DNA of 51,561 nucleotides from Natrinema salifodinae. Lineage in GTDB: Archaea; Halobacteriota; Halobacteria; Halobacteriales; Natrialbaceae. Under the pieces are notes generated by a model. The model saw only the letters and a list, made by a program, of their open reading frames with translations, did not search any database and had not been told where the DNA came from. Position numbers and translations under genes: made by a program. Shown in pieces: positions 9,142-31,596 of this stretch (positions are counted from its first letter, which is position 1; each line of letters starts with the position of its first letter). The stretch is taken from contig NZ_FOIS01000007.1 in NCBI RefSeq assembly GCF_900110455.1, forward strand, positions 1 through 51,561, given 5' to 3'.

Positions 9142-9867
9142 TTAGTTCTCGTCACCCGACGATTCACGCAGACTGCCTACAGCGCTTGCTGTTTTCGACC
9201 CGACCGACTTTCCAGCGCTCGCACTAGCTTTTGCTGTCGCTTTCGTTGCGTGCCAGGTCGTGTGGATCGATTCGAGGGTATGGAATCCGATCAATACCCC
9301 ACCGATGAACAGAACCAGTGATGCGTCGACACCACTCTGGATAATCCATGGAATCGGGAGCTCGATACCGAGAAAGTTCAACACAAGTCCGGTAGTCCCA
9401 CCGATCGAGATCCCACCGTACCGCATGGCCTTTTCTTGGGCGGTGAGTACTGTCCATACCATTCCAACAAGCCCAACGATCGCCGCGAACGCGTCATAGA
9501 TTTTCGTCGCCGCCCCCTCACCACTGCCGTTACCGAATGTACGTTTGACTATCTGTCGGCCAGCATTTTGCGCGAAGACGAGCACTCCACTTACGAACCC
9601 GAGACTCAACAACACTGCATAGGGAGACTCGGAGTAGGCTGCTGGTAGAAGCGATGTTGTGTAGATCACACCCGCGAGCCCGAGACAGTACGCGGTTCCC
9701 GCTGCGGCGTAGTACTTGCGCCCGCCGCGCCGGACCAGGAGCACGAGCGCGGTAACGACCGTTCCTACCCCGATCGCAAACGCAGGCCATACGAACTGTT
9801 GGCCAGCAATGGCAATTGTGACAGCGATACCAACAATGGCTGTTACCACCCAATTTAAGATTTTCAC
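9142..9867 (-). CDS. Polytopic membrane protein with Ala/Ser/Lys-rich tail
   Basis: A 241-aa protein starting with GTG at 9867, about 28 nt from an ACTAGTTTTATAG box, which implies a leaderless mRNA. About six hydrophobic segments are visible (for example VVTAIVGIAVTIAIAG and ASLVLFIGGVLIGFHTL). The C-terminal 45 residues are a hydrophilic helix of Ala, Ser, Thr and Lys (ATKATAKASASAGKSVGSKT). Residues about 110-125 (NAGRQIVKRTFGNGSGEG) form a cytoplasmic loop. No enzymatic motif is seen. It could be a membrane component of the replicon or a vesicle factor. Confidence 0.75.
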   Translation of the reverse strand: MKILNWVVTAIVGIAVTIAIAGQQFVWPAFAIGVGTVVTALVLLVRRGGRKYYAAAGTAYCLGLAGVIYTTSLLPAAYSESPYAVLLSLGFVSGVLVFAQNAGRQIVKRTFGNGSGEGAATKIYDAFAAIVGLVGMVWTVLTAQEKAMRYGGISIGGTTGLVLNFLGIELPIPWIIQSGVDASLVLFIGGVLIGFHTLESIHTTWHATKATAKASASAGKSVGSKTASAVGSLRESSGDEN

Positions 9868-10094
9868 ACAGTCACGTTAAGAGATATATACTATAAAACT
9901 AGTCCGGGAAATTGAGATATCGGGCGACTGTCCGATGGGTTTGATATCAGCGTGTACGTTTCCTGTAGCTGACTGCCGGGCGATTGTTTTCTGAGTGCTC
10001 TCGACAGATTGTAGTAGTCGTAACGCAGTCATTTGGTCGTGGCAATCGGCCACCCACGCATGCTGCGCTCGCGTGGCTAAACAACAACAGCAGT
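9868..10094. other. Divergent intergenic region
   Basis: It holds the ACTAGTTTTATAG promoter (9894-9903) of the minus-strand membrane gene. Rightward it contains short inverted repeats (GTGGC/GCCAC near 10039, CCACGC/GCGTGG near 10055-10076) in the leader of the small plus-strand ORF. No gene is visible. Confidence 0.4.
9894..9903 (-). promoter_or_regulatory. ACTAGTTTTA promoter box, copy 3
   Basis: ACTAGTTTTATAG on the minus strand, with the GTG start at 9867 at TATA-like distance. Shared with 6042 and 9111. Confidence 0.7.
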
Positions 10095-11806: not shown

Positions 11807-14800
11807 ATGACACGCAAAAACTCCTCTTCGAGCGACGCGACTAGCCGCTGGTTCAAACTCCGCGCTGCCCTATTTGCGGCGATCCTCGTTGCGTCGCTCG
11901 TCGGCGCACCGTTGGTCGCTGGAGCCGGGGCCGCCGCGGCGACGTCGACGACCACACAGCCGACGGATATCCAGCCGTCGTTGACAACTTCGACTGTTAC
12001 AACTGCATCGTTCTCGGACGGTTTCGAAAACCAGCCTGCTGATGATGGCGCTCCTGATGGCTGGACGTCTAATAACGTTTCAGGTAACATTAGTGTATCG
12101 ACCCAGAAAGTAGTTGAAGGCAATCAAAGCGTTGCACTGTCAGATAACACCGACGGCGCTGATATTGGCATAATCCCTGAATATCAGCCCTATGACAGCA
12201 GTAAAGAAGGGAACGTTTCGGTATCGATCAATGCGAATGGCAATGATGGCCCGACAGTAGTACAAATCCTCAATTCATCGGGGGACTATTGGCGTGTGGG
12301 TGTCCGTCAAGACGATATCCAAATACAAACGCCGAGTGGCTGGCAGCCGATCGCCAGTGGTGGGTTTAATTCCGGATGGGTGAACATGACCGTCTCTGGA
12401 TTTGGCGACGGCGATGATGAAGTTATGGTTGAGTGGTCAAACGAGACTGACTCTGGCCAAGGGACCTATTCAGTCAGCCACGAAGTCTATACGGAAACAC
12501 GACTCCTCACAAACTCACCGTCATCTGTCTACTTTGACGATTTTAGTATCGATGCCAGAGAGGTCACTGGCCGGGTAACAACCCAAGATGGAACTGCTGT
12601 CGCCAACGCTACGGTCCATGTCACAGGCGTCAACTACGATTCGATTACACCAGGACCAACACAGTCACTCGAGGACCGGGCCAACGAACTGTTCGACAAG
12701 GCTGAAAACCCACTGCCGCCGACCTTTGACCGCTCGCTCAACGTAAAGGGCAGATACATCTCGGACAAGAGTGAGGAGGTTCCACTTGCGTACACGCGCG
12801 AAGATATCGCCGTAACGCCATGGCAGGACAACGCCGACCTGCAACCGCCAAAGGTCGTGTTGCCAGCGGACGAACCGGTTGTCTTCGTGCCGTGGAATCC
12901 CGACGGCGACGCTGGATTTCTCGGCGACGAATACGCGAATCAACTGCCGGGCAAACAAATCAACAAAGGGCCAGTGATCGCAGAGCAACTCGGTCCGGAC
13001 GGTTCGGTCACGCAAACGAACGTGATTCCTGTGGCCGAATCGGCCGGCGGTGGACTTACCGACCCCTCGTCACTCCCCTATGCGGAAACCCGACTCTCAC
13101 CGGGTATCTATCGCATTTACCTCCAAGGCGACGATGCAAAATATCTCATCTCCGTCGGCAACCCGGACCAAATCGCCGGGGCGCTTGAAGATGACTTGAA
13201 AGACAAGGCTGGTGATTACACCGATCGCGCCAAGGATATTCGCCAACGCTTTGAGAACAACAAATTCGAGAGAGAAACCGTCCAGACAAACAGCACTGGC
13301 TACTATTCTGTAGGTGTTGGGAAGGCGACAGCGACCGTCGCCGTCGAAGCGTACAAAGCGCCGGACGTGCCGGTCGATCCAGGCTCGGAGACACACCCAC
13401 GAACACAGATCCGGGAGCACATCGACACCTATGGCACCAACTCGTCGATCTATCTCCCATCGAAGCCAACTCGCTACGATGCGCCGACTGACAGTGCTGA
13501 TGTCGAGTTGCGCGAGGTCAGCTACACGCCATTCGGAAATAACAGCAAATTCGAAAACCGCCTCGCAAACCTCGAGAACCTACTGACAAACGAAACGCAG
13601 CGCCTCGAAAGTGCCTTGCAGCAACCCGACGCGAGCCGTGAAGAACTCGAGAACGTCTACTCAGAACTTGAAGATGTCTCGGACCAAAACGACGAACTCC
13701 GCCAGCGTGTCGAAGAACTCCTGAACCGCGACCGCGAGACACAGGTCGACGTCACGATCGATCCCGACAACGCGACCGATGCGGAGTTGCGCGAACGGAT
13801 CGCCGCCCTCGAGCAAGCAGTCCAAGAGGGCCGTGACACGCTCCCGTCGGACGGCACTGAGACTACCGTCGGCGAGGACACGGTCTCGGCGGTTGCACGC
13901 TTCCCCGGCGAGCTGACGAAAGACAAAATCACCGTGCTCGCACACCACTCTAATGGCACGACTAAAACGGTCAGCGAGGACTACATCACGCTCGACACGA
14001 GCGCGGCAACGAACGTCCCTGGCAACCAGATCGGCACGACCGCGGTCCACGTCGATGACTTCCCGGCCGGCGACGCCGCAAACGTCCAGTTCGAGTGGAT
14101 CACCGCGAGACCTGACGGCGTCGGGCGGGCAACCGCAACGGCGAATAATCCGTTGGTCAACGCCGACGCACCCAAAATCGATTCAGTGCGCGTCTCGTCG
14201 CTCGCACCTGGCCCCGACGACCGCGTCGGCGTCGAAATCAACCCTGGCGAGGACTCGTCGTTCCGGAAACTTACGTCGGCAACGGTCTACGGCCCCGACG
14301 GTGTCACGATCCCGACCGAAGCGATCGAGAACGGTCGCGAGACTGGGTTTGTGACGAACGGCCAGGGCACGCACACCCTCGAGTTGACCTACGAGGATAC
14401 CGAGGCCAACGAGTTCACCAAGACGCTCCGACTCGGAGCAGACACGACTGACCGGCCGCGACCGGCGTCGGTGCGTGCCGAGTCCGGTCCGACCGGTGTC
14501 TATGCACTCGTCGGTGACGGGCTCGCAGACGGTGAGGTGTCGATTGCCGAGAACGGCGACATTTCGACCAGCGCGACCGTCGCCGATCCCGAGAACCCAC
14601 CGAGCGAAATCCACGTTTACACAGGAACGCTCGACACCGACCCAACCGGCGATATTTCCGCACGGCTGGTCGGCGAGGATGGCGCGGCGCTCAACCAGCG
14701 CGCGTGGGTCTACATCCACGCCAAGGCGACCACAGACGGCGGCACCTACGTCTACAGGAACGGCAACCAGCCCGTGACGACCGGCGACGGCAACCAGTTC

Positions 14801-15043
14801 GGGACTGTCACACACCAAGCTGACCAGACGCTGATTAAGACCTACACGAACGCCAACGGCGAGGCACAGGTCACAATCACACAGCCACACGGCCCGATCG
14901 ACTCGACGGTCGAAGCCGCTCGCTGGCAGCTCCGGAAGTACACGGCTGGGTTCTCCGGGTCTGATCTCATTCCGTTCGCAGGTGTGGTCGGACTCGGTCT
15001 GTATACTCGCCGCCGTCACCGTAATCGAGGTGCTACACAATGA
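11807..15043 (+). CDS. Large secreted surface protein (adhesin or spike candidate)
   Basis: A 1078-aa protein. A signal peptide covers about residues 18-45 (LRAALFAAILVASLVGAPLV). Residues about 65-245 look like a jelly-roll, LamG-like domain (FSDGFENQPADDGAPDGWTS onward to YFDDFSIDA). Residues 247-275 (VTGRVTTQDGTAVANATVHV) match a carboxypeptidase-regulatory-like beta sandwich. A coiled coil follows near 590-680, then several beta domains. The C-terminus has a TM helix and basic tail (FAGVVGLGLYTRRRHRNRG). Many N-x-S/T sites suit N-glycosylation. The N-terminal domain is AT-richer than the rest (29 G+C of 60 at 12121-12180 against 40 of 60 at 14041-14100). Its stop overlaps the protease start. 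Confidence 0.8.
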   Translation: MTRKNSSSSDATSRWFKLRAALFAAILVASLVGAPLVAGAGAAAATSTTTQPTDIQPSLTTSTVTTASFSDGFENQPADDGAPDGWTSNNVSGNISVSTQKVVEGNQSVALSDNTDGADIGIIPEYQPYDSSKEGNVSVSINANGNDGPTVVQILNSSGDYWRVGVRQDDIQIQTPSGWQPIASGGFNSGWVNMTVSGFGDGDDEVMVEWSNETDSGQGTYSVSHEVYTETRLLTNSPSSVYFDDFSIDAREVTGRVTTQDGTAVANATVHVTGVNYDSITPGPTQSLEDRANELFDKAENPLPPTFDRSLNVKGRYISDKSEEVPLAYTREDIAVTPWQDNADLQPPKVVLPADEPVVFVPWNPDGDAGFLGDEYANQLPGKQINKGPVIAEQLGPDGSVTQTNVIPVAESAGGGLTDPSSLPYAETRLSPGIYRIYLQGDDAKYLISVGNPDQIAGALEDDLKDKAGDYTDRAKDIRQRFENNKFERETVQTNSTGYYSVGVGKATATVAVEAYKAPDVPVDPGSETHPRTQIREHIDTYGTNSSIYLPSKPTRYDAPTDSADVELREVSYTPFGNNSKFENRLANLENLLTNETQRLESALQQPDASREELENVYSELEDVSDQNDELRQRVEELLNRDRETQVDVTIDPDNATDAELRERIAALEQAVQEGRDTLPSDGTETTVGEDTVSAVARFPGELTKDKITVLAHHSNGTTKTVSEDYITLDTSAATNVPGNQIGTTAVHVDDFPAGDAANVQFEWITARPDGVGRATATANNPLVNADAPKIDSVRVSSLAPGPDDRVGVEINPGEDSSFRKLTSATVYGPDGVTIPTEAIENGRETGFVTNGQGTHTLELTYEDTEANEFTKTLRLGADTTDRPRPASVRAESGPTGVYALVGDGLADGEVSIAENGDISTSATVADPENPPSEIHVYTGTLDTDPTGDISARLVGEDGAALNQRAWVYIHAKATTDGGTYVYRNGNQPVTTGDGNQFGTVTHQADQTLIKTYTNANGEAQVTITQPHGPIDSTVEAARWQLRKYTAGFSGSDLIPFAGVVGLGLYTRRRHRNRGATQ

Positions 15044-16617
15044 CCCGTAAAGTCACAACCGTAGCGCTCACGCTCGCTGTCCTGCTCGCCGGAATCACGG
15101 TGCCGGTCGCCGCGGCCGACAGTCCGGTGGCGTTTCAGGAGTACGATCGCGGCGGTGACTTACAGCCGAGTTTCATCGTCCACTACGAGGATGGCACACT
15201 CGACAGCCTCGAGACGTGGACCGAGGAAGATGCCCGCTACGATCTGATTGCGGTCAACAACGACTCGAGCGAGGCCGTCGTCACTGGTCCACAGTACCAC
15301 GTCTCGACGCCGGGCTTGCTTGAGGCCCCACGGATCGCCGCACTCGGTGGCACGTCGCTTGCGGTGACGCCACTTGAGTCTCGCAGTTATATCGAAGATG
15401 TGTCGCCGAACTACCGCCACAGCTACGTGGAACCAATCACCTCGCTGGCGACCGCCGATGAGTACGACACTCCGGCGAGTAACTGGCGTGTGCGTGGCTC
15501 ATGGGCGACTGACGGCATCGCGTTCACCGACGACGCCAACGAAAGCACGATCGGTGACGCCCGGCAGGTGATCGACGCCGACGCGGTCAGCGCCGACGGC
15601 AGCGGCGTCGACGTGGCCGTGCTCGATACGGGCTTGAACGTCAAAAACGCAAGCGCCGATCCGCTGTATGGCGACCGCATAGCTGGCGCGTACAATTTCG
15701 TCACGGACGAGTCGGGCACCGTGACGAACGGCTTCGAGAACATTTCGGATGGCAACGGTCACGGATCGTGGGTTGCATCGGCGATCGCCGCCAACGCGAC
15801 GAACGACTCGTATGACGGCGTCGCGCCGGGTGCGACACTGCACGTCGGCAAGACGCTGGCCGACGACGGCAGTGGGTCGACCGCTGATATTGTCGACGGG
15901 ATTCGATGGGCCGAAACGCAGGATACGGATATCTTGTCGATGAGTCTCGGCAGCCCGGTCTATGACGAGGAAATCGCCACCGCACTCGAGGACTATCTCG
16001 AGGGCAACGGCACGGTCGCCTACGTGGCGGTCGGCAACTCTCGGATGGTGCGGCCAGCCCAAATCGCAAGCCCGGCGGACGTTCCAGAAGACGGCATCAT
16101 CTCGGTCGCAGCGACGACCGCTGAGGAACCCGCCAACGCCTCCGTCGCGTACTTCTCCCAGACCGGCAAGGACAACGGCGTGACCGACCTCTCGAGTGGC
16201 ACGACCCGCGGTGCGTCACCGGATGTGGCTGCACCCGGAATGCAGGTCACGGTACCGACCTACAGCGAATCAGGCTACCGAACCAACAGCACACTCTCTG
16301 GGACGAGCATGGCGACGCCAATCGAAGCCGCTCGCGGTGCGGTTGGACTCTCCGCCAACCCGTCTCTCGAAAACCAGACCGAGACGTTCGCCGAGTGGGT
16401 CCGAAACACGACGAACCCGGTTCCGAACGCCGGCATCACGGAGGTCGGCAACGGCATGGGCTCGGTTGCGAGGCTCGCGAATCTGAACGCCAGCGAGGAA
16501 ACGCAGAAAGAGGCCCGCACCGACGCAGCCACAGGCCGTGATGCTGCAAACGGCAACTTCGGGACTGGGTTCCAATTCCAGGCAATCCGGCAGGTCCAAC
16601 AGGCAGTGGGGCTGTGA
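15040..16617 (+). CDS. Secreted subtilisin-like serine protease (S8)
   Basis: A 525-aa protein with a signal peptide at residues 1-26 and a propeptide-like region to about 185. The full triad is visible: Asp196 in VAVLDTG, His241 in GNGHGSWVA and Ser423 in LSGTSMATP, with oxyanion Asn333. These are the hallmarks of halolysin-type subtilases. The ATG overlaps the end of the large surface-protein gene, so the two are translationally coupled. It may process the spike, the other surface proteins or the host S-layer. The C-terminal 60 residues have no clear extension domain. Confidence 0.92.
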   Translation: MTRKVTTVALTLAVLLAGITVPVAAADSPVAFQEYDRGGDLQPSFIVHYEDGTLDSLETWTEEDARYDLIAVNNDSSEAVVTGPQYHVSTPGLLEAPRIAALGGTSLAVTPLESRSYIEDVSPNYRHSYVEPITSLATADEYDTPASNWRVRGSWATDGIAFTDDANESTIGDARQVIDADAVSADGSGVDVAVLDTGLNVKNASADPLYGDRIAGAYNFVTDESGTVTNGFENISDGNGHGSWVASAIAANATNDSYDGVAPGATLHVGKTLADDGSGSTADIVDGIRWAETQDTDILSMSLGSPVYDEEIATALEDYLEGNGTVAYVAVGNSRMVRPAQIASPADVPEDGIISVAATTAEEPANASVAYFSQTGKDNGVTDLSSGTTRGASPDVAAPGMQVTVPTYSESGYRTNSTLSGTSMATPIEAARGAVGLSANPSLENQTETFAEWVRNTTNPVPNAGITEVGNGMGSVARLANLNASEETQKEARTDAATGRDAANGNFGTGFQFQAIRQVQQAVGL

Positions 16618-17324: not shown

Positions 17325-17461
17325 CCTTCCCGAACTGGTTGTTCACTCGCGGTTCAAATCCCGTCGTGTGGTGCTTCTCCGTTTTCGCACCCTATGCCAC
17401 CACCCGGACAGTCCAACAACCGACACAATAACACCTATTGGAAATAACAACAGCACAAACC

Positions 17462-17721
17462 ATGCCCATGGACAACGACTACGACGGCGGCCGACAGCTC
17501 GAGCCAGACGAACCGGCCACAACCAGACGCCAAGCAATGGCTGCCGGTATGGCACTGTCGATGCCGATGTTGTTCGATAGCTGGGGCGATGACGACGAAC
17601 TCGGCGAACTCGGTTTTTTGATACCCACTATGTCGCCGACAGTGGCGAGAAACTCACGATCGACCCGGAGGTCCTTAATTTCGCGAAAAACATCAACGTC
17701 AAAGCTCGGCGACTCGCGTGA
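17462..17721 (+). pseudogene. Tat-type small protein with an apparent -1 frameshift at T6
   Basis: From ATG 17462 the frame gives MPMDNDYDGG, a twin-arginine segment TTRRQAMAAGMALSMPMLF and an acidic stretch DDDELGELG. At the T6 run 17614-17619 the original frame becomes Arg/Ser-rich and non-haloarchaeal. The -1 frame instead continues as FDTHYVADSGEKLTIDPEVL then NFAKNINVKARRLA and stops at 17721. The joined product is about 86 aa. It may be a mutation, a homopolymer error or programmed slippage. The N-terminus is built like that of the next gene (RR, hydrophobic, acidic). Confidence 0.6.
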
Positions 17722-17798
17722 CGAGCTGCGGTACGAGAACTGATCTGTCGCCGATAGTGATTTAACTAACCTTACGAGAAATCAACTAAGAGGTACCA

Positions 17799-19823: not shown

Positions 19824-19880
19824 TAAGTCTGCCCTGAACGGCGACATTGTGGCCTATTTTTGAGGAATACCACCACAACA

Positions 19881-20258
19881 ATGACAGTAGCAACACGACT
19901 CATCGAGTTGTACCGAACGGGCGGCCGCGACGAACTGGCCCGCGGTATCGGCGATTGGATCGCAGTCAACCCACCAGGCCACCTGGCAGCACAACTCACC
20001 CAAACTGCGACCCTGTCGGTCGACGGCGTCAGCGCCACGATCGCCGTCGACAGCAAAGAAGACTTGTACCGCGCTCGCGGCCACGGCGAGCGAGACGTCA
20101 TGGCCGATCTACTCGCGGCGATCGAGGCCGACGATGTCCTGTGGGATATCGGGGCCAACGTCGGGACGTATGCCGTCCTCGCGGCACTGACTGGCGCGAC
20201 CGTCTCGAGACGCTGGGCTTCGACGTCGACGCGCCGTCCGCCAACTCCTGAAAGCTGA
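19881..20258 (+). pseudogene. FkbM-family methyltransferase, internally deleted
   Basis: The N-terminal about 105 residues match an FkbM SAM methyltransferase: DLYRARGHGERDVMADLLAA and motif I VLWDIGANVGTYAVLAAL. After GAT the frame turns to Arg/Ser/Pro-rich sequence and stops at 20258. In the +2 frame the same bases read LETLGFDVDAPSANS and stop at 20251, which looks like a native FkbM C-terminus. A deletion of the middle of the gene that shifted the frame explains both facts. FkbM enzymes O-methylate sugars, which fits the glycosylation genes downstream. Confidence 0.75.
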
Positions 20259-20274
20259 ACGTAACTAACACTTC

Positions 20275-20314
20275 GCCCGTTTTGGAGCACGACGGTTCGA
20301 CTCCGTCGGCGGGC
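20275..20314 (+). ncRNA. tRNA-like minihelix (t-element) A
   Basis: GCCCGTT (20275-20281) pairs with GGCGGGC (20308-20314), two of the seven pairs being G-U. A T-arm of GACGG/CCGTC (20291-20295, 20303-20307) carries the loop TTCGACT, which fits the tRNA T-loop consensus. T-stem and acceptor 3' strands are contiguous, as in tRNA, while only 9 nt replace the D and anticodon arms. It has the shape of a minimal RNase P/tRNase Z substrate. Confidence 0.6.
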
Positions 20315-20319
20315 CTTCG

Positions 20320-20355
20320 CCGTCGGTAGACGTGGGTGCGAGTCCCACCCGACGG
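20320..20355 (+). ncRNA. tRNA-like minihelix (t-element) B
   Basis: CCGTCGG (20320-20326) pairs perfectly with CCGACGG (20349-20355). GTGGG/CCCAC (20332-20336, 20344-20348) encloses the loop TGCGAGT (C56- and A58-equivalent bases kept, G for T55). All 12 pairs are Watson-Crick, and a 5-nt linker replaces the D and anticodon arms. It lies in tandem with element A and 24 nt before ATG 20380. Confidence 0.6.
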
Positions 20356-20379
20356 TATCCTACACTTTTCACGCACACT

Positions 20380-21351
20380 ATGACACCCGACCACCCACAG
20401 GTCTCGGTCGTCTGCTCGGTCGCCGGTCCAAACGACCGGCTCGAGACGGCGATCGACTGCCTGCTCGCACAGACTCATACGCCCCAAATCGTCGTCACCG
20501 TCGACGATGCACCCGACCTGGCGGCCTCCCTCGCAGACCGGTACGCCGACGCGCCGGTCGTGATCGATCACACACCAGGCGCGACTGGCCTGTCGGCGGC
20601 ACGCAACCGTGGCGCGACCGTCGCCGACGGCGAGATATTCGCCTTTACCGACGCCGACTGCGAGCCGTCGGAGGATTGGGTCGCCGAACTCGTCCGGTGC
20701 TACGCTGCCCACGACGCGATCGCGGCGGGCGGCCCGGCGACGCCGGCCTGGCCCGACGACCGGCCGGCCCGTGTGCCACCGGAACTCGACTGGCTCATCG
20801 GCGCGACCCACCGCGGGTTCGCTCCCGACGGCGAGGGCATCCGCGAGGTTCGCAACACGTTCGGCTGCAACATCTCGTTCCGCGCGGACGTCTTCGACGC
20901 GCTGGGCGGCTTCGACGAACGACTCGGGAAACGCCCCGGTCACGAGATTCAGGGCGAGGAGGCCGAGTTGTGCGCCCGCCTGCGCGAACGCTTCGGCCAG
21001 GGCGTCCACTACAACCCCGACGCGGTCGTCACCCACCACGTCGACGACTACCAGCTCGAACGCCGAACGATCCTCGAACGGTCGTTCCTCCAAGGGCGCT
21101 CGAAACGCCTGCTCGCTGACCTGCTCCCCGACGCGACCGACACGGAAGCCGACTACCTCGGACGACTGCTCGGTACGTGGGTTCCAGAACGACTCACCCA
21201 AACGGTCACGGACCGCTCGCCACGGCCACTCGTCGAGACGGCCTGGCTCCTCGCAGTCACGGCCGCGGTCGGCGTCGGCTATCTGACCGGCGGCACGACG
21301 ACACTCGAGACACCGACTGAGACACCACACCCGGAGGCCCAAACCCAATGA
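20380..21351 (+). CDS. Family 2 glycosyltransferase
   Basis: A 323-aa protein. It begins with the GT2 pattern VSVVCSVAGPNDRLETAIDC and has the DXD-like EIFAFTDADCEPSEDWV near residue 90 and the acceptor-side FDALGGFDERLGKRPGHEIQ with QGEEAELCARLRE, as in polypeptide- or lipid-linked sugar transferases. A hydrophobic C-terminal stretch (TAWLLAVTAAVGVGYLTGG) may anchor it to the membrane. ATG 20380 follows the tandem tRNA-like elements. The stop overlaps the next start (ATGA). It probably extends an N-glycan for the surface proteins of this element. Confidence 0.9.
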   Translation: MTPDHPQVSVVCSVAGPNDRLETAIDCLLAQTHTPQIVVTVDDAPDLAASLADRYADAPVVIDHTPGATGLSAARNRGATVADGEIFAFTDADCEPSEDWVAELVRCYAAHDAIAAGGPATPAWPDDRPARVPPELDWLIGATHRGFAPDGEGIREVRNTFGCNISFRADVFDALGGFDERLGKRPGHEIQGEEAELCARLRERFGQGVHYNPDAVVTHHVDDYQLERRTILERSFLQGRSKRLLADLLPDATDTEADYLGRLLGTWVPERLTQTVTDRSPRPLVETAWLLAVTAAVGVGYLTGGTTTLETPTETPHPEAQTQ

Positions 21352-22520
21352 CCGAAATTGCAGTCGCACACGAACACTACCTCGAACGCGGCGGCGGCGA
21401 ACACGTCGCTGATACACTCGCTCGCACGTTCGACGCCGATATCTACGCCGGCCTGGTCCGCGAGGATGCGACGGCCGACGATCTCGATCCGGAACCGATC
21501 TGCGACGGCGCGTGGGCGTCGGTCATGGAGCGATCGGTGTTCGCTCGCGATCTGACCTACTTTCAGGCCTGGCGACATGCTTCCGACCTCCATGACTACG
21601 ACGCGATTATCCAGTCGGGCAACAATCCTGGCTGGTACGTCCCGCAGGACGACCAAACGATCATCAAATACGTCCACTCTCCACAACGCACTCCCTACGA
21701 TCGGTGGGCCAACGGTGACCCCGGAGCACTCACGCGCGCCTACGCCGAAGCCGCCCGCCAACTCTATCAAGAGACGCTTACACACCCGGACGTCTTCGTC
21801 GCCAATAGTGAGGTGATCGCCAGGCGCTGCCGGAAATACTGGGGCGTCCCCGAGGACAAACTCGAAGTCGTCTACCCGCCGGTCGATACTGAAAGCTACG
21901 GACAAGAGCACGCCACGGCAGAACCGACCTATTACTTCACGTTCTCCCGACTCTACCCCTCGAAGCGAATCGACCAGATCGTGCGGGCGTTCACGCGGCT
22001 TGACGACAGTTATCAGCTCGTGGTCGGCGGCTCCGGTCCCGACCGCGACCGTCTCGAGTCGATCGCCGACGACAGTGTTCAATTCGTCGGCTACCTCAGC
22101 GAAGCCGAGAAACGCCGCCGACTCGCGGAGTGTCGGGCCTTTATTTTCGCCGCCGAAAACGAGGATTTCGGGCTGTGTCCCATCGAAGCGTTCGCAAGCG
22201 GGACACCCGTCCTTGGCGTCAACGAGGGCTTCACGCAACACCAAATCCTCGCAGGCCAGAACGGCTACACCTTCGGACGCGACCCCGGTGACCTCGACGG
22301 AGCGATTCACCGCTTCGAGCGCGAGGGCGCGGCATGGTCGCCAACCCAACTCGAGACGTTCGCGGCCGACAACTTCGGACGTGAGCGCTTCGCCCGAGAG
22401 ATGCAACGCATCGTCATGGAGGCCCGCGAACGCAGCGCCATCGACGTGTCCTACGACCGGCCACTCGAGACGACCGACGACGCACAACTGGCCGTCACTG
22501 ACGGAGGGACCGATGAGTAA
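21348..22520 (+). CDS. Family 4 (GT-B) glycosyltransferase
   Basis: A 390-aa protein. The N-terminal Rossmann half starts MTEIAVAHEHYLERGGGEHV. The C-terminal half has FSRLYPSKRIDQIVRAF, VVGGSGPDRDRLES and the E-x7-E donor site ENEDFGLCPIEAFASGTPVL. This is the classical GT4 layout. Translation is coupled to the GT2 gene upstream by ATGA, and the stop overlaps the methyltransferase start by 8 nt. It acts on an activated sugar at the cytoplasmic face, most likely in the same glycan pathway. Confidence 0.92.
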   Translation: MTEIAVAHEHYLERGGGEHVADTLARTFDADIYAGLVREDATADDLDPEPICDGAWASVMERSVFARDLTYFQAWRHASDLHDYDAIIQSGNNPGWYVPQDDQTIIKYVHSPQRTPYDRWANGDPGALTRAYAEAARQLYQETLTHPDVFVANSEVIARRCRKYWGVPEDKLEVVYPPVDTESYGQEHATAEPTYYFTFSRLYPSKRIDQIVRAFTRLDDSYQLVVGGSGPDRDRLESIADDSVQFVGYLSEAEKRRRLAECRAFIFAAENEDFGLCPIEAFASGTPVLGVNEGFTQHQILAGQNGYTFGRDPGDLDGAIHRFEREGAAWSPTQLETFAADNFGRERFAREMQRIVMEARERSAIDVSYDRPLETTDDAQLAVTDGGTDE

Positions 22521-23046
22521 CGCACACGCCCGCGACCGGTTACACCTCTTTTGTGGCGAGGACTACCGAGAGGAGGCGATCAACGTCGATGCCAATCCCG
22601 ACGTGGACCCCGACCTCGTACTCGACTTGACCGACTACCCGTGGACCCCCTTCGAGGATGACAGTGTGACATACATCGAAGCCCGCCACGGCCTCGAACA
22701 CCTGGCCGATCCGACGGCCTTTTTCGAGGAGTGTGCGCGGGTACTCCGATCAGGCGGCACCCTCGAAATCACCGTCCCGCTGGGGGTCAACGCTCGAATG
22801 GACAACGATCACGAAACGAAGTGGACCTACGAAACGCCCGAACAGTACTCCGCGCCCGATCGCCGCCCGTGGGACCCCGAAGTTCCCTTCGAGTTGGTCG
22901 ACCGCAACGTTCGGACGTGGCTCGGCGGCCCACTCGCGCCACTCACGCCGCTGTTCCAAGCGGCTGCTCGCCGCTGGCCGGCGTGGGCCGCGGCCCGCTG
23001 CTACGGCGGTGAACTCACCGCGGTCTATCGGAGGGTCGAGCAATGA
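22513..23046 (+). CDS. Class I SAM-dependent methyltransferase
   Basis: A 177-aa protein, short for the family. It lacks the usual N-terminal GxGxG loop but keeps LHLFCGEDYREEAINVDANP, the acidic DLVLDLTDYPWTPFEDDSV, EARHGLEHLADPTAFFEECA and VLRSGGTLEITVPLG, typical of methyltransferase-11-like proteins found in glycan clusters. It starts inside the end of the GT4 gene and overlaps the next gene by ATGA. It probably methylates a sugar; the FkbM gene upstream is broken, so this may be the working methylase. Confidence 0.85.
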   Translation: MSNAHARDRLHLFCGEDYREEAINVDANPDVDPDLVLDLTDYPWTPFEDDSVTYIEARHGLEHLADPTAFFEECARVLRSGGTLEITVPLGVNARMDNDHETKWTYETPEQYSAPDRRPWDPEVPFELVDRNVRTWLGGPLAPLTPLFQAAARRWPAWAAARCYGGELTAVYRRVEQ

Positions 23047-23552
23047 AGATCTCCCGAGACGGCGTCCTCCCGCAACTCGAGCCGGTCGGCAACCTCGGCC
23101 GGTGGCAAGTCCGACTCGGCGCGGCGAAACGCCTGTTCCAGCGGTCGGGCATCCTCTCGCGGATGATTACCATGTGGTCGGCCATGACGGCCGCCTACTC
23201 GACGACGCCGCTGTTACAGGATGTGTTCGGCTCGCTCATGGCCTTTCTCGTCGCCGGGACCGGCGCACTCGCGGTCTACGGCGCGTTCGACTACGTCGGA
23301 CTCATGCCTGGCGAGCAAGCGTTCGGACAAACACAGAGTCAGCGATCGGAACGCTCGCCGCTCAAACGCGACACCGAAGCGATCCTCGAACGCCTTGAGA
23401 CCGACGCTCCGCGAACCGACGGCGGCCAAGCGACGGTCGTCCCGGAGTGCAACCGCTGTAACAAGGCCGGCGTCCCGGGGACGCACAAAGGAGAGCGAAC
23501 GATTCGGTGTCCCGATTGCGGCGAGCAACTCTTCCGGAGGATCGACCAATGA
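23043..23552 (+). CDS. Membrane protein with C-terminal zinc ribbon
   Basis: A 169-aa protein. Two hydrophobic segments lie at about residues 35-60 and 64-90 (FGSLMAFLVAGTGALAVYGA). A zinc ribbon follows near the end (CNRCNKAGVPGTHKGERTIR, then CPDCGEQLFRR). It is translationally coupled to genes on both sides within the glycosylation island. A membrane adaptor for the glycan enzymes is possible. Function unknown. Confidence 0.75.
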   Translation: MKISRDGVLPQLEPVGNLGRWQVRLGAAKRLFQRSGILSRMITMWSAMTAAYSTTPLLQDVFGSLMAFLVAGTGALAVYGAFDYVGLMPGEQAFGQTQSQRSERSPLKRDTEAILERLETDAPRTDGGQATVVPECNRCNKAGVPGTHKGERTIRCPDCGEQLFRRIDQ

Positions 23553-24505
23553 GTTTCACAGATTGGATCAACGAATCATGCGAGTTAGTTTCTGAGCAAG
23601 GCCTTCGACGTGGTGGGCGGCTTGCCGCCCAAGAGTTCGGCGTCGGCGTCGGCCGCCGCGTCGGGCAACGGATCAACTACGGCGAGTCGTTTTGGGAGCG
23701 TGGCGATTGGGACGTGCTCGTCTTACTCGACGCCTGCCGCCACGATCTCATGCAATCGGTCGCCGACGAGTGGGCGTTCCTGCCTGACGATGTGCCGTCG
23801 GTCTACAGCTCGGCGAGCATGTCCGAGGAGTTCCTCGAGCGTCACCTCACCGACGAGTATCAGGCCGAGATCGAGAACACGGCCATGGTCGCGGCCAACG
23901 CGTTCACGAGACACGATTGGGTTCACGAAGCTGGCTGGCCGCATCTCGACGAAGTCTGGACGCACAGTTGGTCGGAAGACGACGGCACGGTCCTCCCGCG
24001 GCCCGTGACGGATGCGGCGGTCGACTACTGGCGGCGTGACGATCGCCAGGCTGACCAGATGATCGTCTGGTACCTGCAACCACACGGCCCGTTCGTCCAC
24101 GAGGAGTGGTCGCACGGGTTCGAGAAATCAGAAATCGGCGACGGCGCTGGCGTTCACAAATCCGTCTGGAACCGGCTTCGTGACGGTGAACTCACCGAAG
24201 AACAACTCTGGAACGGCTACCGCCGCAATCTCGAATTTGTGCTCGAGGACGTTCAGTTGCTCCTCCGCAATCTCGACGCCGAGAACGTCGTCATTTCGTC
24301 GGACCACGCCAACGGCCTCGGCGAGTGGGGCGTCTACGGCCACCCGAAGTACGTCCCCGCCCCCGCGGTCAAACGCGTCCCGTGGATCGAGACGACGGCA
24401 ACCGATGCGGGCGGCTACGAGCCGGCCTATCAGGCCCGGGCCGACGAGACTGACACTGCGGAGATCGACGTCGACGAACGACTCTCGGCACTTGGCTATG
24501 CATAG
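23549..24505 (+). CDS. Sulfatase/alkaline-phosphatase-fold protein
   Basis: A 318-aa protein. WDVLVLLDACRHDLMQSVAD near residue 52 is the metal-binding and nucleophile strand of the sulfatase fold, and VVISSDHANGLGEWGVYGHP near 252 is the second metal site (DH...GH). A Cys in DAC at the nucleophile position could become formylglycine, but the C-x-P/A-x-R consensus is replaced by CRHDL. A transferase role on lipids or glycans is also possible. The ATG overlaps the preceding stop as ATGA, completing the five-gene coupled glycosylation set. Confidence 0.8.
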   Translation: MSFTDWINESCELVSEQGLRRGGRLAAQEFGVGVGRRVGQRINYGESFWERGDWDVLVLLDACRHDLMQSVADEWAFLPDDVPSVYSSASMSEEFLERHLTDEYQAEIENTAMVAANAFTRHDWVHEAGWPHLDEVWTHSWSEDDGTVLPRPVTDAAVDYWRRDDRQADQMIVWYLQPHGPFVHEEWSHGFEKSEIGDGAGVHKSVWNRLRDGELTEEQLWNGYRRNLEFVLEDVQLLLRNLDAENVVISSDHANGLGEWGVYGHPKYVPAPAVKRVPWIETTATDAGGYEPAYQARADETDTAEIDVDERLSALGYA

Positions 24506-24514
24506 GAAACTCCG

Positions 24515-24682
24515 ATGAGAGAGCACACAATCCGGTGGACGGTCGGAGGGATTCCCCCGCCGCCAGTGGTACCACCACCGTCCTCACCTCCAGTCCCACC
24601 ACCCGATACCCCTACCCGGGAGGACCCGAATCGTACGCTAACCAACCGTTCTCTGACATCAAATTCCGCTAATGAAATTTAA
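24515..24682 (+). CDS. Small proline-rich ORF
   Basis: A 55-aa frame, MREHTIRWTVGGIPPPPVVP onward, with a Pro-rich core, an acidic-Thr segment and a Ser/Asn-rich end. It lies between the sulfatase-like gene and the surface-protein gene and overlaps the latter start by 11 nt. GTGGTACCAC (24566-24575) inside it is a 10-bp palindrome, and GGACGGT/ACCGTCC flank that region, so it may instead be structured leader RNA. Confidence 0.35.
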   Translation: MREHTIRWTVGGIPPPPVVPPPSSPPVPPPDTPTREDPNRTLTNRSLTSNSANEI

Positions 24683-25700
24683 TCGCAACACAGTCACGAC
24701 GCTGCTTATGGTCGCGCTGGTCGCCCTCGCGGGCATCGGCGCGTTCGCTGGCTCCAGTGCCGCTGCCGAACCGACCGTCGACTCCGATTCGGACCTCCAA
24801 GACACCGATACGTGGGTCGACTTCAACGCCTCGGAAAACACGACACAGAAGATCAACTACACGAACACGGATGCACAGGACGGCGCACTCGTCGTCTGGG
24901 ACCCCGATACGGGCGATAACGCCTCGGATGCGCAGGTTCACGCGGAGTTTGACAACTCTTCGGATGCGTTCTACGAGCGGAACGCGACCGCTGACGAGTA
25001 CGGCTTCAACCTCTCGGGCGACGACTTAGAAACCGTCCCGATGGAGGCTGGTGAAAACAAGTCGGTCAAGGTCACGATCGCCAACCAGAGCGACTGGGAG
25101 GGCGAGAACGCGAATCTGACCACGATGGACGTCACGCTGGATAACACGATGGAGCGCAGCGTGATGTACATCGGCGACCACCAGGTCGAGAACGAAGCCT
25201 ACGGCCTGAGCCACACGGACAAAGATCCGAAGACGGTCGCCGGTATCAACATCCCGTTCACGGGCGAGCAGGCGACCTCGCTCGATACGTCGCGGGACAT
25301 CGACGGCTCGAACACGACGGTCTACGCCTACATGGCAAACGACTCGGTTGCGAGCCACTTCGACGATAACTTCGGCTCGCTCGATAGCGCCACCTGGTCC
25401 GACGATACGCTCGCCCAACTCGGCGACGACGCGGCGGTCAAGGCCTACGCGAGTTCGCTGCCCGACGACCTCGATAGCAGCACCTCGGCGCTGAAACACG
25501 ATACCAGCGGCTCGACGGACGCGCTGGTCCTTGAGCTCGGCGACGAGCACGACGGCGAGTCCTCGATCGACATGCAGGTTAACTCCGACCCCGGATTCAG
25601 TGACCTGTTCAGCGCCTACGGCCTTGAGGCGTTCAGTATCGGCGGGTTCTCGCTCGGCGTGCTGTTCGTGGTCGGCGGCCGCCGTCGTCTCGGCGCGTAA
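24672..25700 (+). CDS. Membrane-anchored secreted surface protein (second spike candidate)
   Basis: A 342-aa protein. A signal peptide at residues 1-31 (TLLMVALVALAGIGAFAGSS) is followed by an acidic ectodomain with many N-x-S/T sites (FNASENTTQKINYTNTDAQD, DNSSDAFYERNATAD). A single C-terminal helix and a basic tail end it (FSIGGFSLGVLFVVGGRRRL). This is the build of haloarchaeal S-layer-like and pleolipovirus spike proteins. It follows the glycosylation genes and precedes a tRNA-like element, so it may be produced at a distinct level. No homologue can be named. Confidence 0.8.
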   Translation: MKFNRNTVTTLLMVALVALAGIGAFAGSSAAAEPTVDSDSDLQDTDTWVDFNASENTTQKINYTNTDAQDGALVVWDPDTGDNASDAQVHAEFDNSSDAFYERNATADEYGFNLSGDDLETVPMEAGENKSVKVTIANQSDWEGENANLTTMDVTLDNTMERSVMYIGDHQVENEAYGLSHTDKDPKTVAGINIPFTGEQATSLDTSRDIDGSNTTVYAYMANDSVASHFDDNFGSLDSATWSDDTLAQLGDDAAVKAYASSLPDDLDSSTSALKHDTSGSTDALVLELGDEHDGESSIDMQVNSDPGFSDLFSAYGLEAFSIGGFSLGVLFVVGGRRRLGA

Positions 25701-25733
25701 CGGACGCACTGTTTGCTAACTGATTCTGCGTTC

Positions 25734-25780
25734 GACCCGCACAGGCAGTCTTGCACTGGTTCGACTCCAGTGGCGGGTCC
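25734..25780 (+). ncRNA. tRNA-like minihelix (t-element) C, ends at a start codon
   Basis: GACCCGC (25734-25740) pairs perfectly with GCGGGTC (25773-25779). The T-arm CACTGG/CCAGTG (25754-25759, 25767-25772) carries TTCGACT. The 13 bp stack without interruption on the 3' side, and a 13-nt linker stands in for the other arms. C25780 is in the discriminator position. The next gene starts at 25783, so a tRNase Z cut would leave a leader of 2-4 nt. Confidence 0.65.
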
Positions 25781-25782
25781 TT

Positions 25783-26193
25783 ATGGCAACGCACGATCAC
25801 CACGAGACGCTCGAACCGACCGAGACCGACCGCGATCGCGGACGGGCACTGGTCCCACGACTTCGCGAGGCCGGGCTGACGCTGTTCGATGCGGCGACGA
25901 CGTCGCTGGATCTGCGGCCTAGTCCATCGGTCTGCCCCGATGGGGACTGGCTCTGCGATGAGGACCTCCCGCTCCGCAAGACCTGGTCCCGTCGCGGCCA
26001 GGCCGACCACATCCAACTGACTTCGGGCGGGCTCTCGGGACTGTGGACGGTCACGCACCAACTCCCTGACGGCCGATCCGAGGTGATCGCGTCGGACCTC
26101 GAGCGCGAGGCAGCCTACGCGCGCGCAGAACAGTACATGGCCGATCTCGATAGCGTCGCGCGGGCGAATCGGACCGGACGAGCGGCGGAGTAA
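25783..26193 (+). CDS. Hypothetical acidic protein, 136 aa
   Basis: ATG 25783 lies directly after the tRNA-like element. The protein is soluble, with an N-terminal disordered stretch and a mixed domain (CPDGDWLCDEDLPLRKTWSR, GGLSGLWTVTHQLPDGRSEV) ending in a helix. There are two Cys but no zinc ribbon. No family recognised. Its isolation between two tRNA-like elements suggests separate expression. Confidence 0.7.
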   Translation: MATHDHHETLEPTETDRDRGRALVPRLREAGLTLFDAATTSLDLRPSPSVCPDGDWLCDEDLPLRKTWSRRGQADHIQLTSGGLSGLWTVTHQLPDGRSEVIASDLEREAAYARAEQYMADLDSVARANRTGRAAE

Positions 26194-26203
26194 GTAATGC
26201 AGT

Positions 26204-26260
26204 GCGGCCCAGCGGCCGGGACTGGCGTTCTGCAATGCGGGTTCGATTCCCGTCGGTCGC
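26204..26260 (+). ncRNA. Degenerate tRNA-like element D
   Basis: GCGGCC (26204-26209) pairs with GGTCGC (26255-26260), with one G-U. The T-arm GCGGG/CCCGT (26237-26241, 26249-26253) encloses TTCGATT, a good T-loop. One unpaired base lies between the stems, and the linker is 27 nt. It is less regular than elements A-C but sits in the same kind of gap. Confidence 0.45.
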
Positions 26261-26262
26261 GT

Positions 26263-26281
26263 GCCCGGTCTCCTACCGGGC
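26263..26281 (+). terminator. 7-bp hairpin following element D
   Basis: GCCCGGT (26263-26269) pairs perfectly with ACCGGGC (26275-26281), with loop CTCCT. No T-tract follows at once, so it may be a leader or processing structure and not a terminator. Confidence 0.35.
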
Positions 26282-26376
26282 CACCAGTGGGGCTCGAGGG
26301 CGCTTTCCTCGCCTCTGGTCCTTCGCCCCCTCTCCCAACCGACCCCCCACCCTTCGTTTTCAGTACAAGACCAACC

Positions 26377-27087
26377 ATGAAACTCAAAGATCCACACCGA
26401 CGACGAGTCCTGCGGCAGACCGGCGCCACGCTCACGGCGATTGGGACTGCCGGGCTCGCAACGACGACCGCCAGCGCCCAGACCGACGACGACAGCCCGC
26501 CGGGTGGCCTCCTCGCAAGCGGGTTCGACGTCGGCAACGGCTCCATCTTCGCGTTCCTTCGAGGTTTCCGAAGTGCCCGCCAGTCGCCGCTCGCACAGAC
26601 ACCGTCACTCGAGAACCTCGCCGACGGGATGCGAAACGAGTTCGTCGCCAACGAAGAGCACTGGATCAACTACGGCAATTGGCTCGTCTCGGAGCACGAC
26701 GAGGTCGAACCGCTCGGGACGACGACGCTCCAGGTCGACGTGTTCGAGTCGACCATCCGCGGAGAGGGCGACCGCGTCGAGACCGTCATCGAAGCTGAGT
26801 ACGACGACTCGACAGAGGAGTTCACGGCGATCGACTGGCGGATTGAAGCACCAGAGAACCCTGATTATCAGGTCGGAATCAAGGATTCTCACGCCCGGCT
26901 GGCCGACGACGACCTCATGGAGTACCGACGCAAGTTCATCGACGAATCGGGCGACGGGAACCACGCAATGCCCGACGGTGAATACGTCGAAGAACTGAAG
27001 GGCCGCTACTGGGACGGCATTACGATTGGCCCCGACAGCAAGGGCGTCCTCGAGATCCTGGTCGGAGAGGTGAGTTCTAATGGTTGA
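26377..27087 (+). CDS. Tat-exported protein of unknown function
   Basis: A 236-aa protein from ATG 26377 with a Tat signal (DPHRRRVLRQTGATLTAIGT and TAGLATTTASA). The mature part is acidic, with FLRGFRSARQSPLAQTPSLE and TTLQVDVFESTIRGEGDRVE. It ends 8 nt inside the next gene. It opens the run of envelope-type genes that leads to the ATPase. Unknown family; likely periplasm-like or particle-surface located. Confidence 0.7.
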   Translation: MKLKDPHRRRVLRQTGATLTAIGTAGLATTTASAQTDDDSPPGGLLASGFDVGNGSIFAFLRGFRSARQSPLAQTPSLENLADGMRNEFVANEEHWINYGNWLVSEHDEVEPLGTTTLQVDVFESTIRGEGDRVETVIEAEYDDSTEEFTAIDWRIEAPENPDYQVGIKDSHARLADDDLMEYRRKFIDESGDGNHAMPDGEYVEELKGRYWDGITIGPDSKGVLEILVGEVSSNG

Positions 27088-28225: not shown

Positions 28226-28421
28226 ACTACTACCAGACCCACAAATCGGCGGCATCGGCGGGATGCTCCTGTGGCTCTTTTTCATCACCATCGCGCTGAC
28301 GTTCCTGTTGACGACCGGTCTCGCATCGGTCCTAATCGTCGCCGTTGTGTGGGGAGCAATCCTACTGGTGTTGTACTTCGTCCTCTCGAGAATCCTGTTC
28401 CGACTCAAGCGGGGAAGATAA
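28209..28421 (+). CDS. Small two-TM membrane protein
   Basis: A 70-aa product from GTG 28209, overlapping the previous gene by 17 nt. Two adjacent hydrophobic helices (GGMLLWLFFITIALTFLLTT, VLIVAVVWGAILLVLYFVLS) are followed by a basic end, RILFRLKRGR, that should face the cytoplasm. No family is recognised. It belongs to the membrane gene set before the ATPase. Confidence 0.7.
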   Translation: MISLGKLLPDPQIGGIGGMLLWLFFITIALTFLLTTGLASVLIVAVVWGAILLVLYFVLSRILFRLKRGR

Positions 28422-28424
28422 GCG

Positions 28425-31272: not shown

Positions 31273-31596
31273 ACCACGGCCACCAAAGGCTACCACAGGC
31301 CTATCGCGTCGGCTACCTAAAATCGCAAGAGGAAGTCGGGATGCCCACCATGTCTACCGGTCTTGGCCCTGAGCGATAGTCCTGTATATTGGAAAGCGCG
31401 CGCATTACGCCCGCGGAATCAAATAGTACAGCAAAATTTCATGAAACGCGCCTACGCACACGTGAGAAGCAACTCCACCGACCGACCGCCGCCAATCGAC
31501 CTCGAGCCGTCGTATCGCAATTCCAACTAACGAATTATCAACATCGCAATTCCCGATCCAGTGTTCAATCAATGAACCAACCAGCATCCGCTCCGC
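31273..31596. other. Intergenic break inside the late region
   Basis: These 324 bases separate the ATPase from the next unit. ATCGCAATTCC occurs twice (31514-31524 and 31543-31553), 29 bp apart, which could be operator half-sites for the winged-helix gene at 31597. A 29-codon frame at 31441-31530 (MKRAYAHVRS onward) has fair codon use but no other support. No tRNA-like element is seen here. Confidence 0.4.

Follow-up and report, generated by a model that had tools for sequence, protein, structure and literature searches.

tRNA-like elements between the protein genes of a haloarchaeal plasmid as probable tRNase Z processing signals

What role is played by the tRNA-like minihelices that stand in the gaps between genes of a plasmid of Natrinema salifodinae? 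The DNA studied here, called the window, is the whole 51,561-nucleotide (nt) contig NZ_FOIS01000007.1 (assembly GCF_900110455.1), and all features described in it are on the forward strand. An earlier note had placed three or four such elements between 20275 and 26281. All four are present and share one plan: a 7-base-pair (bp) acceptor-like stem, a short linker, a 5–6-bp T-stem and a 7-nt T-type loop. With a probability of roughly 0.8 they are t-elements in polycistronic mRNA that are cut by the host tRNase Z before the start of the next gene. The structure, conservation, covariation and position of the elements, the architecture shared with the 5S rRNA t-element and the host RNase Z gene are observed, and the cut with its effects is the inference drawn from them. 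The elements would be stripped-down tRNA mimics that combine these two stems with a TTCRANY loop and a linker GG standing for G18-G19 of tRNA.

Element 1 (20275–20315) has the sequence GCCCGTT-TTGGAGCAC-GACGG-TTCGACT-CCGTC-GGCGGGC. The acceptor stem is formed by positions 20275–20281 and 20308–20314, the T-stem by 20291–20295 and 20303–20307, and the T-loop by 20296–20302; the discriminator base is C 20315. This element is the top covariance-model match in the window (32.6 bits) and was also found by a descriptor scan. Element 2 (20320–20356) is in tandem with element 1 and reads CCGTCGG-TAGAC-GTGGG-TGCGAGT-CCCAC-CCGACGG, with T 20356 as the discriminator. A comparable tandem pair is present at 9851–9945 of locus L010. 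Element 3 (25734–25780) is GACCCGC-13 nt-CACTGG-TTCGACT-CCAGTG-GCGGGTC. It has a 6-bp T-stem, AGG within the 13-nt linker, the loop TTCGACT at 25760–25766 and discriminator C 25780, and elements are found at 16 further homologous sites. Element 4 spans 26212–26261, somewhat inside the 26204–26260 first proposed, and reads GCGGCCG-18 nt-GCGGG-TTCGATT-CCCGT-CGGTCGC, with the T-loop at 26242–26248 and discriminator G 26261. A D-arm-like hairpin, GGGAC-TGGC-GTTCT, is located at 26218–26231. The stretch 26204–26296 is 88% identical to one in plasmid pHTUR05.

In a covariance-model scan of the window (51.6 kb) the four elements rank first to fourth, and the next match has an E value of 0.37. The training set held elements 1, 3 and 4; element 2, the fourth-best match with 17.8 bits, was left out of it. 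A descriptor scan of the window and its relatives (575 kb) yields 23 elements on the gene strand and three on the other strand, compared with 1.15 per strand in dinucleotide shuffles of the same sequences. The chance expectation is 0.24 perfect descriptor matches per shuffled window, both strands included. A fully paired 5-bp T-stem accompanies 27 of 109 GTTCRANYC motifs on the gene strand versus 3 of 84 on the other (Fisher P 3e-5), a test in which pairing plays no part in the selection of the motifs. The elements had been described as confined to the gaps of the gene array. This is borne out, but several gaps of 116–474 nt are without any (17325–17798, 24506–24671, 28226–28424 and 31273–31388). 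No full tRNA gene is detected in the window by ARAGORN or Rfam. Both programs are silent on the elements, since little of the D and anticodon arms is present. With linkers of 5–18 nt, the window elements lack the set of D arm, anticodon arm and anticodon that a functional tRNA has. Their T-arm, closed by a 7-nt T-type loop and stacked with an acceptor-like stem, is the arrangement of a t-element.

Homologues of gene 26377–27087 were gathered from plasmids and genomes and represent 23 loci. In 21 of these, by our own count with weaker cases included, a T-arm element is found no more than about 1 kb upstream of the homologue. Two boundaries recur: site 3, before a small gene starting MAT, and site 4, before gene 26377 itself. 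An alignment of 27 elements, with linkers trimmed to 6 nt, was used for covariation analysis. Paired cells amount to 91% against 61% when shuffled, a percentage that is inflated, as elements were partly chosen by pairing; the variety of pair types is not explained by this choice. Double-sided changes number 95 compared with 33 in shuffles. The covariation score is 0.760, against 0.191 for shuffled alignments and 0.105–0.184 for structures slid out of register. The compensatory changes that the earlier note had asked for in homologous elements are abundant, and its statement that the stem sequences differ while pairing is kept holds.

Other properties point to tRNA geometry. The closing pair of the T-stem is G-C in 32 of 32 elements; in real tRNAs the corresponding pair is G53-C61. 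The T-loop is conserved across elements. The linker contains GG in 31 of 32, usually as TGG (26/32), and this GG is likely the counterpart of tRNA G18-G19, which contact the T-loop. The linkers at site 4 form a small hairpin with TGG in the loop and a stem that changes in a compensatory manner: GGGAC/GTTCT in the window, and GGGAC/GTCCT, GGGGC/GCCCC or GGGCC/GGCCC elsewhere. Such changes in the D-arm-like hairpin are found in homologues of element 4 in L002, L005, L046, L048 and L050. The short linker that had been proposed to replace the D and anticodon arms is not featureless, with GG nearly always present and the hairpin at site 4. Element 4, previously ranked as the weaker one, is comparatively well conserved.

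Some linkers (L002, L004 and L043) are near tRNA size, and the minimum-energy fold of L002 includes an anticodon-arm-like hairpin with a 5-bp stem and a 7-nt loop. This is what decayed tRNA genes might leave behind. That the elements are decayed tRNA genes, or functionless hairpins formed by chance, is nevertheless hardly tenable. Decay would give neither compensatory changes nor fixed spacing, and the window is without a full tRNA. The difference between strands and from the shuffles, the paired-stem motif test and the covariation refute both forms of this explanation.

A link to a known processing signal is found in the host genome. Model R1, a covariance model trained on plasmid-locus elements alone, was run over the 4.27-Mb genome. 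Besides the elements of the window it matches two tRNA-Asp genes, and it also matches directly upstream of 5S rRNA genes at three sites, where Rfam RF00001 adjoins the match. One of these 5S-associated elements reads ACCGATT ATGGTCTACT CACGG TTCGATT CCGTG AATCGGC A and is followed directly by 5S rRNA. It is not credible that three 5S leaders were matched by chance. In Haloferax volcanii a t-element upstream of 5S rRNA is reported to be the tRNase Z signal that makes the 5' end of the 5S rRNA (Holzle 2008 and 2012, as cited in PMC4326828 and PMC7714728), and other work has transferred the t-element to new RNAs as a site for cutting (PMC4326828, PMC4946936). The elements of the window have the same architecture as the H. 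volcanii 5S t-element, i.e., an acceptor-like stem and T-arm, a linker GG and no full D and anticodon arms. The 5S element, too, immediately precedes the RNA that receives its 5' end by the cut, and it is present at three 5S genes here. The window elements differ in that they precede protein genes and repeat serially, and in that a cut would often place the new 5' end a few nt from a start codon, or expose a 5' hairpin. The idea of serial tRNA-like minihelices that are under selection for structure and of a type cut by tRNase Z is supported by comparison, through the covariation and the model matches to 5S t-elements.

The host has an RNase Z gene (TIGR02651, E 2.9e-101). Autoregulation of this gene was considered, as a 25-nt stretch about 85 nt upstream of it (L239) matches the T-arm and acceptor of element 2 at 92%. 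The candidate was ruled out: the match is not fully paired in the T-stem, is not seen in 23 related loci and is probably due to chance.

tRNase Z cuts a tRNA after the discriminator, 13 nt past the T-loop (12 bp plus one base). The host enzyme would cut the elements at the same point. At site 3 the ATG is 1–4 nt past the predicted cut in 14 of 17 homologous sites and 6, 8 or 9 nt past it in the others (median 3 nt, n = 17). In the window, ATG 25783 is 17 nt after the T-loop of element 3. Among all motifs, an ATG 14–18 nt past the T-loop accompanies 14 of 27 with paired stems versus 4 of 82 unpaired ones (P 2e-7). Because its start is so close behind the predicted new 5' end, the gene after site 3 would have a leaderless mRNA. 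In haloarchaea an mRNA counts as leaderless if 0–5 nt precede its start codon, and 72% of those in H. volcanii are of this kind (PMC4983044).

The site-4 elements and those of the chromosomal arrays described below would instead give a new 5' end that coincides with a short GC hairpin or lies a few nt from it, and the start codon is often some 18–31 nt distant. In the window this hairpin is GCCCGGT-ctcct-ACCGGGC at 26263–26281, within a few nt behind the predicted cut. Similar hairpins are found after the site-4 elements of L001, L004, L009, L042, L046, L048, L055 and L056. The hairpin may protect or gate the message. A second hairpin (26298–26314) has a variable stem sequence and the conserved loop CTTTCCT, present as such or as a close variant in 13 of the 23 loci. 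Just before the start codon of gene 26377 is a conserved TTTCAGTAC (26358–26366), also in 13 of 23 loci when small variation is allowed. Where a stop codon is found upstream of an element it is 0–78 nt away, which is compatible with a 5' cut by RNase P. The outcome would be a separate 5' end for each gene without a promoter of its own. The cleavage, its precise position and the consequences for translation and stability are all predicted; RNase P might cut as well. Cutting between genes, which had been proposed to divide the transcript, is retained, but its purpose is likely more specific, namely a leaderless start or a 5'-terminal hairpin.

The nearness of the elements to start codons at many sites, together with the strong covariation, would also suit a tRNA-like fold that stays uncut and regulates in cis how the following gene is translated, by binding the ribosome or a tRNA-handling protein. 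We consider this unlikely. The spacing falls into two classes, 1–5 nt and mostly about 18–31 nt with a hairpin between, and this fits a fixed cut better than contact with a ribosome. In addition, an element of the same design precedes 5S rRNA, which is not translated. A promoter is another possible source of leaderless ends, with the T-arm region as a promoter element, transcription initiating at the gene and the fold incidental. Leaderless haloarchaeal mRNAs are normally promoter-derived, and the intergenic repeats of halovirus HF2 carry promoters (PMC8707807). The stems of the elements conserve pairing and not sequence, however, and no AT-rich TATA-like box is visible by eye at about -27 in the GC-rich T-arm. 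The T-loop has the same position at 5S rRNA, an RNA known to be a processing product, and a promoter is thus a very improbable explanation.

Several observations weigh against cleavage by tRNase Z as the function of the elements. Element 2 has the atypical loop TGCGAGT and a low score, and a cut after 20356 would give gene 20380 a 23-nt leader and no leaderless mRNA. Two of the 23 loci (L044 and L051) are without a convincing element, and the T-stem at site 3 of pHTUR05 has a bulge. The canonical fold is the minimum-energy fold for element 2 only; elements 1, 3 and 4 prefer other folds. Elements 1–3 have energy z values of -1.9, -2.5 and -2.4, and element 4 has one of -0.3; folding by energy is by itself not a convincing criterion. 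The 5S matches of R1 have modest E values (0.018–0.085), and their weight comes from position. Covariation would also arise if the tRNA-like fold served some purpose other than cutting, and cleavage and the cut sites are deduced here from comparison and from the precedent in a related species.

Do the elements belong to this plasmid in particular? A model scan of 293 genomes of the order, with a threshold of E 0.02, gives matches in 104. One of the best 30 loci is a 5S t-element. Most of the other best loci have a stop codon no more than 78 nt upstream and a start codon on the same strand shortly past the predicted cut, as judged by open reading frames and not by annotation. Several loci are serial, with 4–6 elements spaced every 1–2 kb in gene arrays. 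The products of the array genes carry SipW-dependent signal peptides or are TafA/TafC/TafE-like and DUF1102 proteins. A hairpin of the form UUCCCC...GGGG, or one like it, very often opens the predicted RNA product in these arrays, and 18–31 nt commonly separate the cut from the start codon. In an alignment of 44 elements outside the training set, fitted to the model, double-sided changes number 37 versus 11 in shuffles. It was also observed that six chromosomal or large-replicon loci (L213, L215, L216, L218, L220 and L222) carry 3–6 elements per locus between tandem fimbrial genes of the SipW-signal/Taf-like kind.

A DUF5658 gene provides a further case. Of 121 genomes sampled in the family, 113 have it, and all 30 loci examined (L265–L294), that of the host (L285, G000:C2) among them, show a T-loop 14–15 nt ahead of its ATG. 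This suggests a host gene that relies on the signal too, with the element perhaps in a 5' leader and not between genes. Nine model matches checked in other classes of the phylum are ordinary tRNA-Arg genes, and the sample has no sign of the system outside Halobacteria. The elements look like a haloarchaea-wide mRNA-processing signal that is not specific to a mobile element, because they are also found in chromosomal arrays and before the DUF5658 gene. The serial use first noted in a mobile element extends to chromosomal arrays of secreted-protein genes, and a host gene is preceded by an element as well. We consider it fairly probable that tRNA punctuation of mRNA is general in haloarchaea, with tRNase Z cleaving degenerate tRNA mimics that stand in gene boundaries or within 5' leaders. 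This would yield leaderless or 5'-hairpin mRNAs in plasmids, in secreted and fimbrial arrays, and before host genes such as DUF5658.

The window itself, as judged from gene order and named hosts, is a haloarchaeal plasmid resembling the plasmid-vesicle family (pR1SE/apHPV). The founder of this family is pR1SE, and its members have two conserved gene clusters (PMC10818511). The assignment is made because the gene order, with a large secreted protein, an S8 peptidase and two gene clusters, and the named hosts agree. Cluster 1, with the ORF6-like protein and S8 peptidase, is followed in the window by cluster 2 with the ORF17-like protein. Homology and gene order are shared with plasmids pHTUR05 and pHALXA03, whose host species are among those that defined apHPV (PMC10818511). 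Distant DNA matches are to plasmids of Haloterrigena, Natrinema, Halopiger, Natronorubrum and relatives. A DNA search of phages gave no match to the window, and a protein search of viral contigs gave no relative; a pattern scan of the viral contigs gave at least 120 matches, expected to be mostly chance. Neither tRNA nor non-coding RNA comes up in a text search of the main text of the apHPV paper (PMC10818511).

The large secreted protein, similar to pR1SE ORF6, is encoded at 11807–15043 and the ORF7-like S8 serine peptidase at 15040–16617 (protease PHROG 3677), both identified by tblastn to L001–L006. A short frame at 19847–20258 resembles, by eye, the start of an FkbM-type methyltransferase and is seemingly truncated just before elements 1 and 2. 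A family-2 glycosyltransferase gene (20380–21351; PF00535, E 1.9e-17) follows these two elements. Element 3 is preceded by a secreted or surface protein gene (24672–25700), which by gene order is probably at the pR1SE ORF9 position. A signal peptide and a C-terminal hydrophobic segment can be read from its sequence, and it has no match in Pfam or PHROGs. The gene after element 3 (25783–26193) encodes 136 amino acids, as supported by homologues and alignment. Gene 26377–27087, which is conserved within the family and has homologues in plasmids and genomes, encodes a Tat-signal protein and is probably at the ORF17 position. The equivalences to ORF9 and ORF17 were assigned via gene order, that to ORF17 also via the hosts named in PMC10818511. 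A T-rich tract is often present immediately 5' of the element in apHPV loci L006, L009, L041, L042, L048 and L049; it could be a termination signal or a leader feature.

The region preceding gene 26377 is reported to be variable among plasmids (PMC10818511), and a tRNA-like gene has been proposed as attP in halovirus HF2 (PMC8707807). Such a variable region would be explained if the elements were sites of attachment or recombination that arose from tRNA genes. In the host genome, however, the element sequences match only themselves and short, weak stretches, and no host tRNA gene has identity of attachment-site length, so an attachment site within the 3' part of a tRNA gene was rejected. Stems that differ while pairing is kept are the opposite of what is found in a recombination site. 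The orientation of the elements follows the genes and copies are present in stable chromosomal loci, and we give this origin only a very slight chance. The HF2 sequence is similar in that it is tRNA-like and on a haloarchaeal mobile element, but it shares a 57-nt match with host tRNA genes and lies next to an integrase (PMC8707807), while the elements here match no host tRNA. The carrier of the elements is of the apHPV/pR1SE type, in which the genes for the large secreted protein and the S8 peptidase are followed by a conserved downstream cluster (PMC10818511).

As processing signals cut by tRNase Z, the elements can be compared with systems in organelles. In animal mitochondria, polycistronic RNA is punctuated by functional tRNAs. 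The shared features are tRNA structures in polycistronic RNA that are cut by tRNA enzymes to release near-leaderless mRNAs; the difference is that the elements here are unable to serve as tRNAs, and most have no anticodon arm. The t-elements of plant mitochondria are tRNA-like folds that act as mRNA processing signals, a use similar to that proposed here but in another domain of life, and we know of no serial sets at start codons among them. The kind of element is already known from 5S rRNA, and what appears to be new is the serial use between protein genes and the placement at start codons. Work by Holzle in 2012 may already describe further t-elements in H. volcanii.

Most haloarchaeal mRNAs are leaderless, and the assumed origin is transcription that starts at the ATG. 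If the proposed processing is correct, there would be a second route to leaderless ends, in which a tRNA-processing enzyme acts inside operons. This would explain how genes in tight arrays acquire independent 5' ends, and it would tie mRNA output to the capacity for tRNA maturation. For the transcript-processing sites of Halobacterium and Haloferax, searches for sequence motifs failed and structural motifs were suggested (PMC8303175); the elements would provide a structural motif for some of those that are unexplained. The covariance model makes the proposal directly testable in genetically tractable species.

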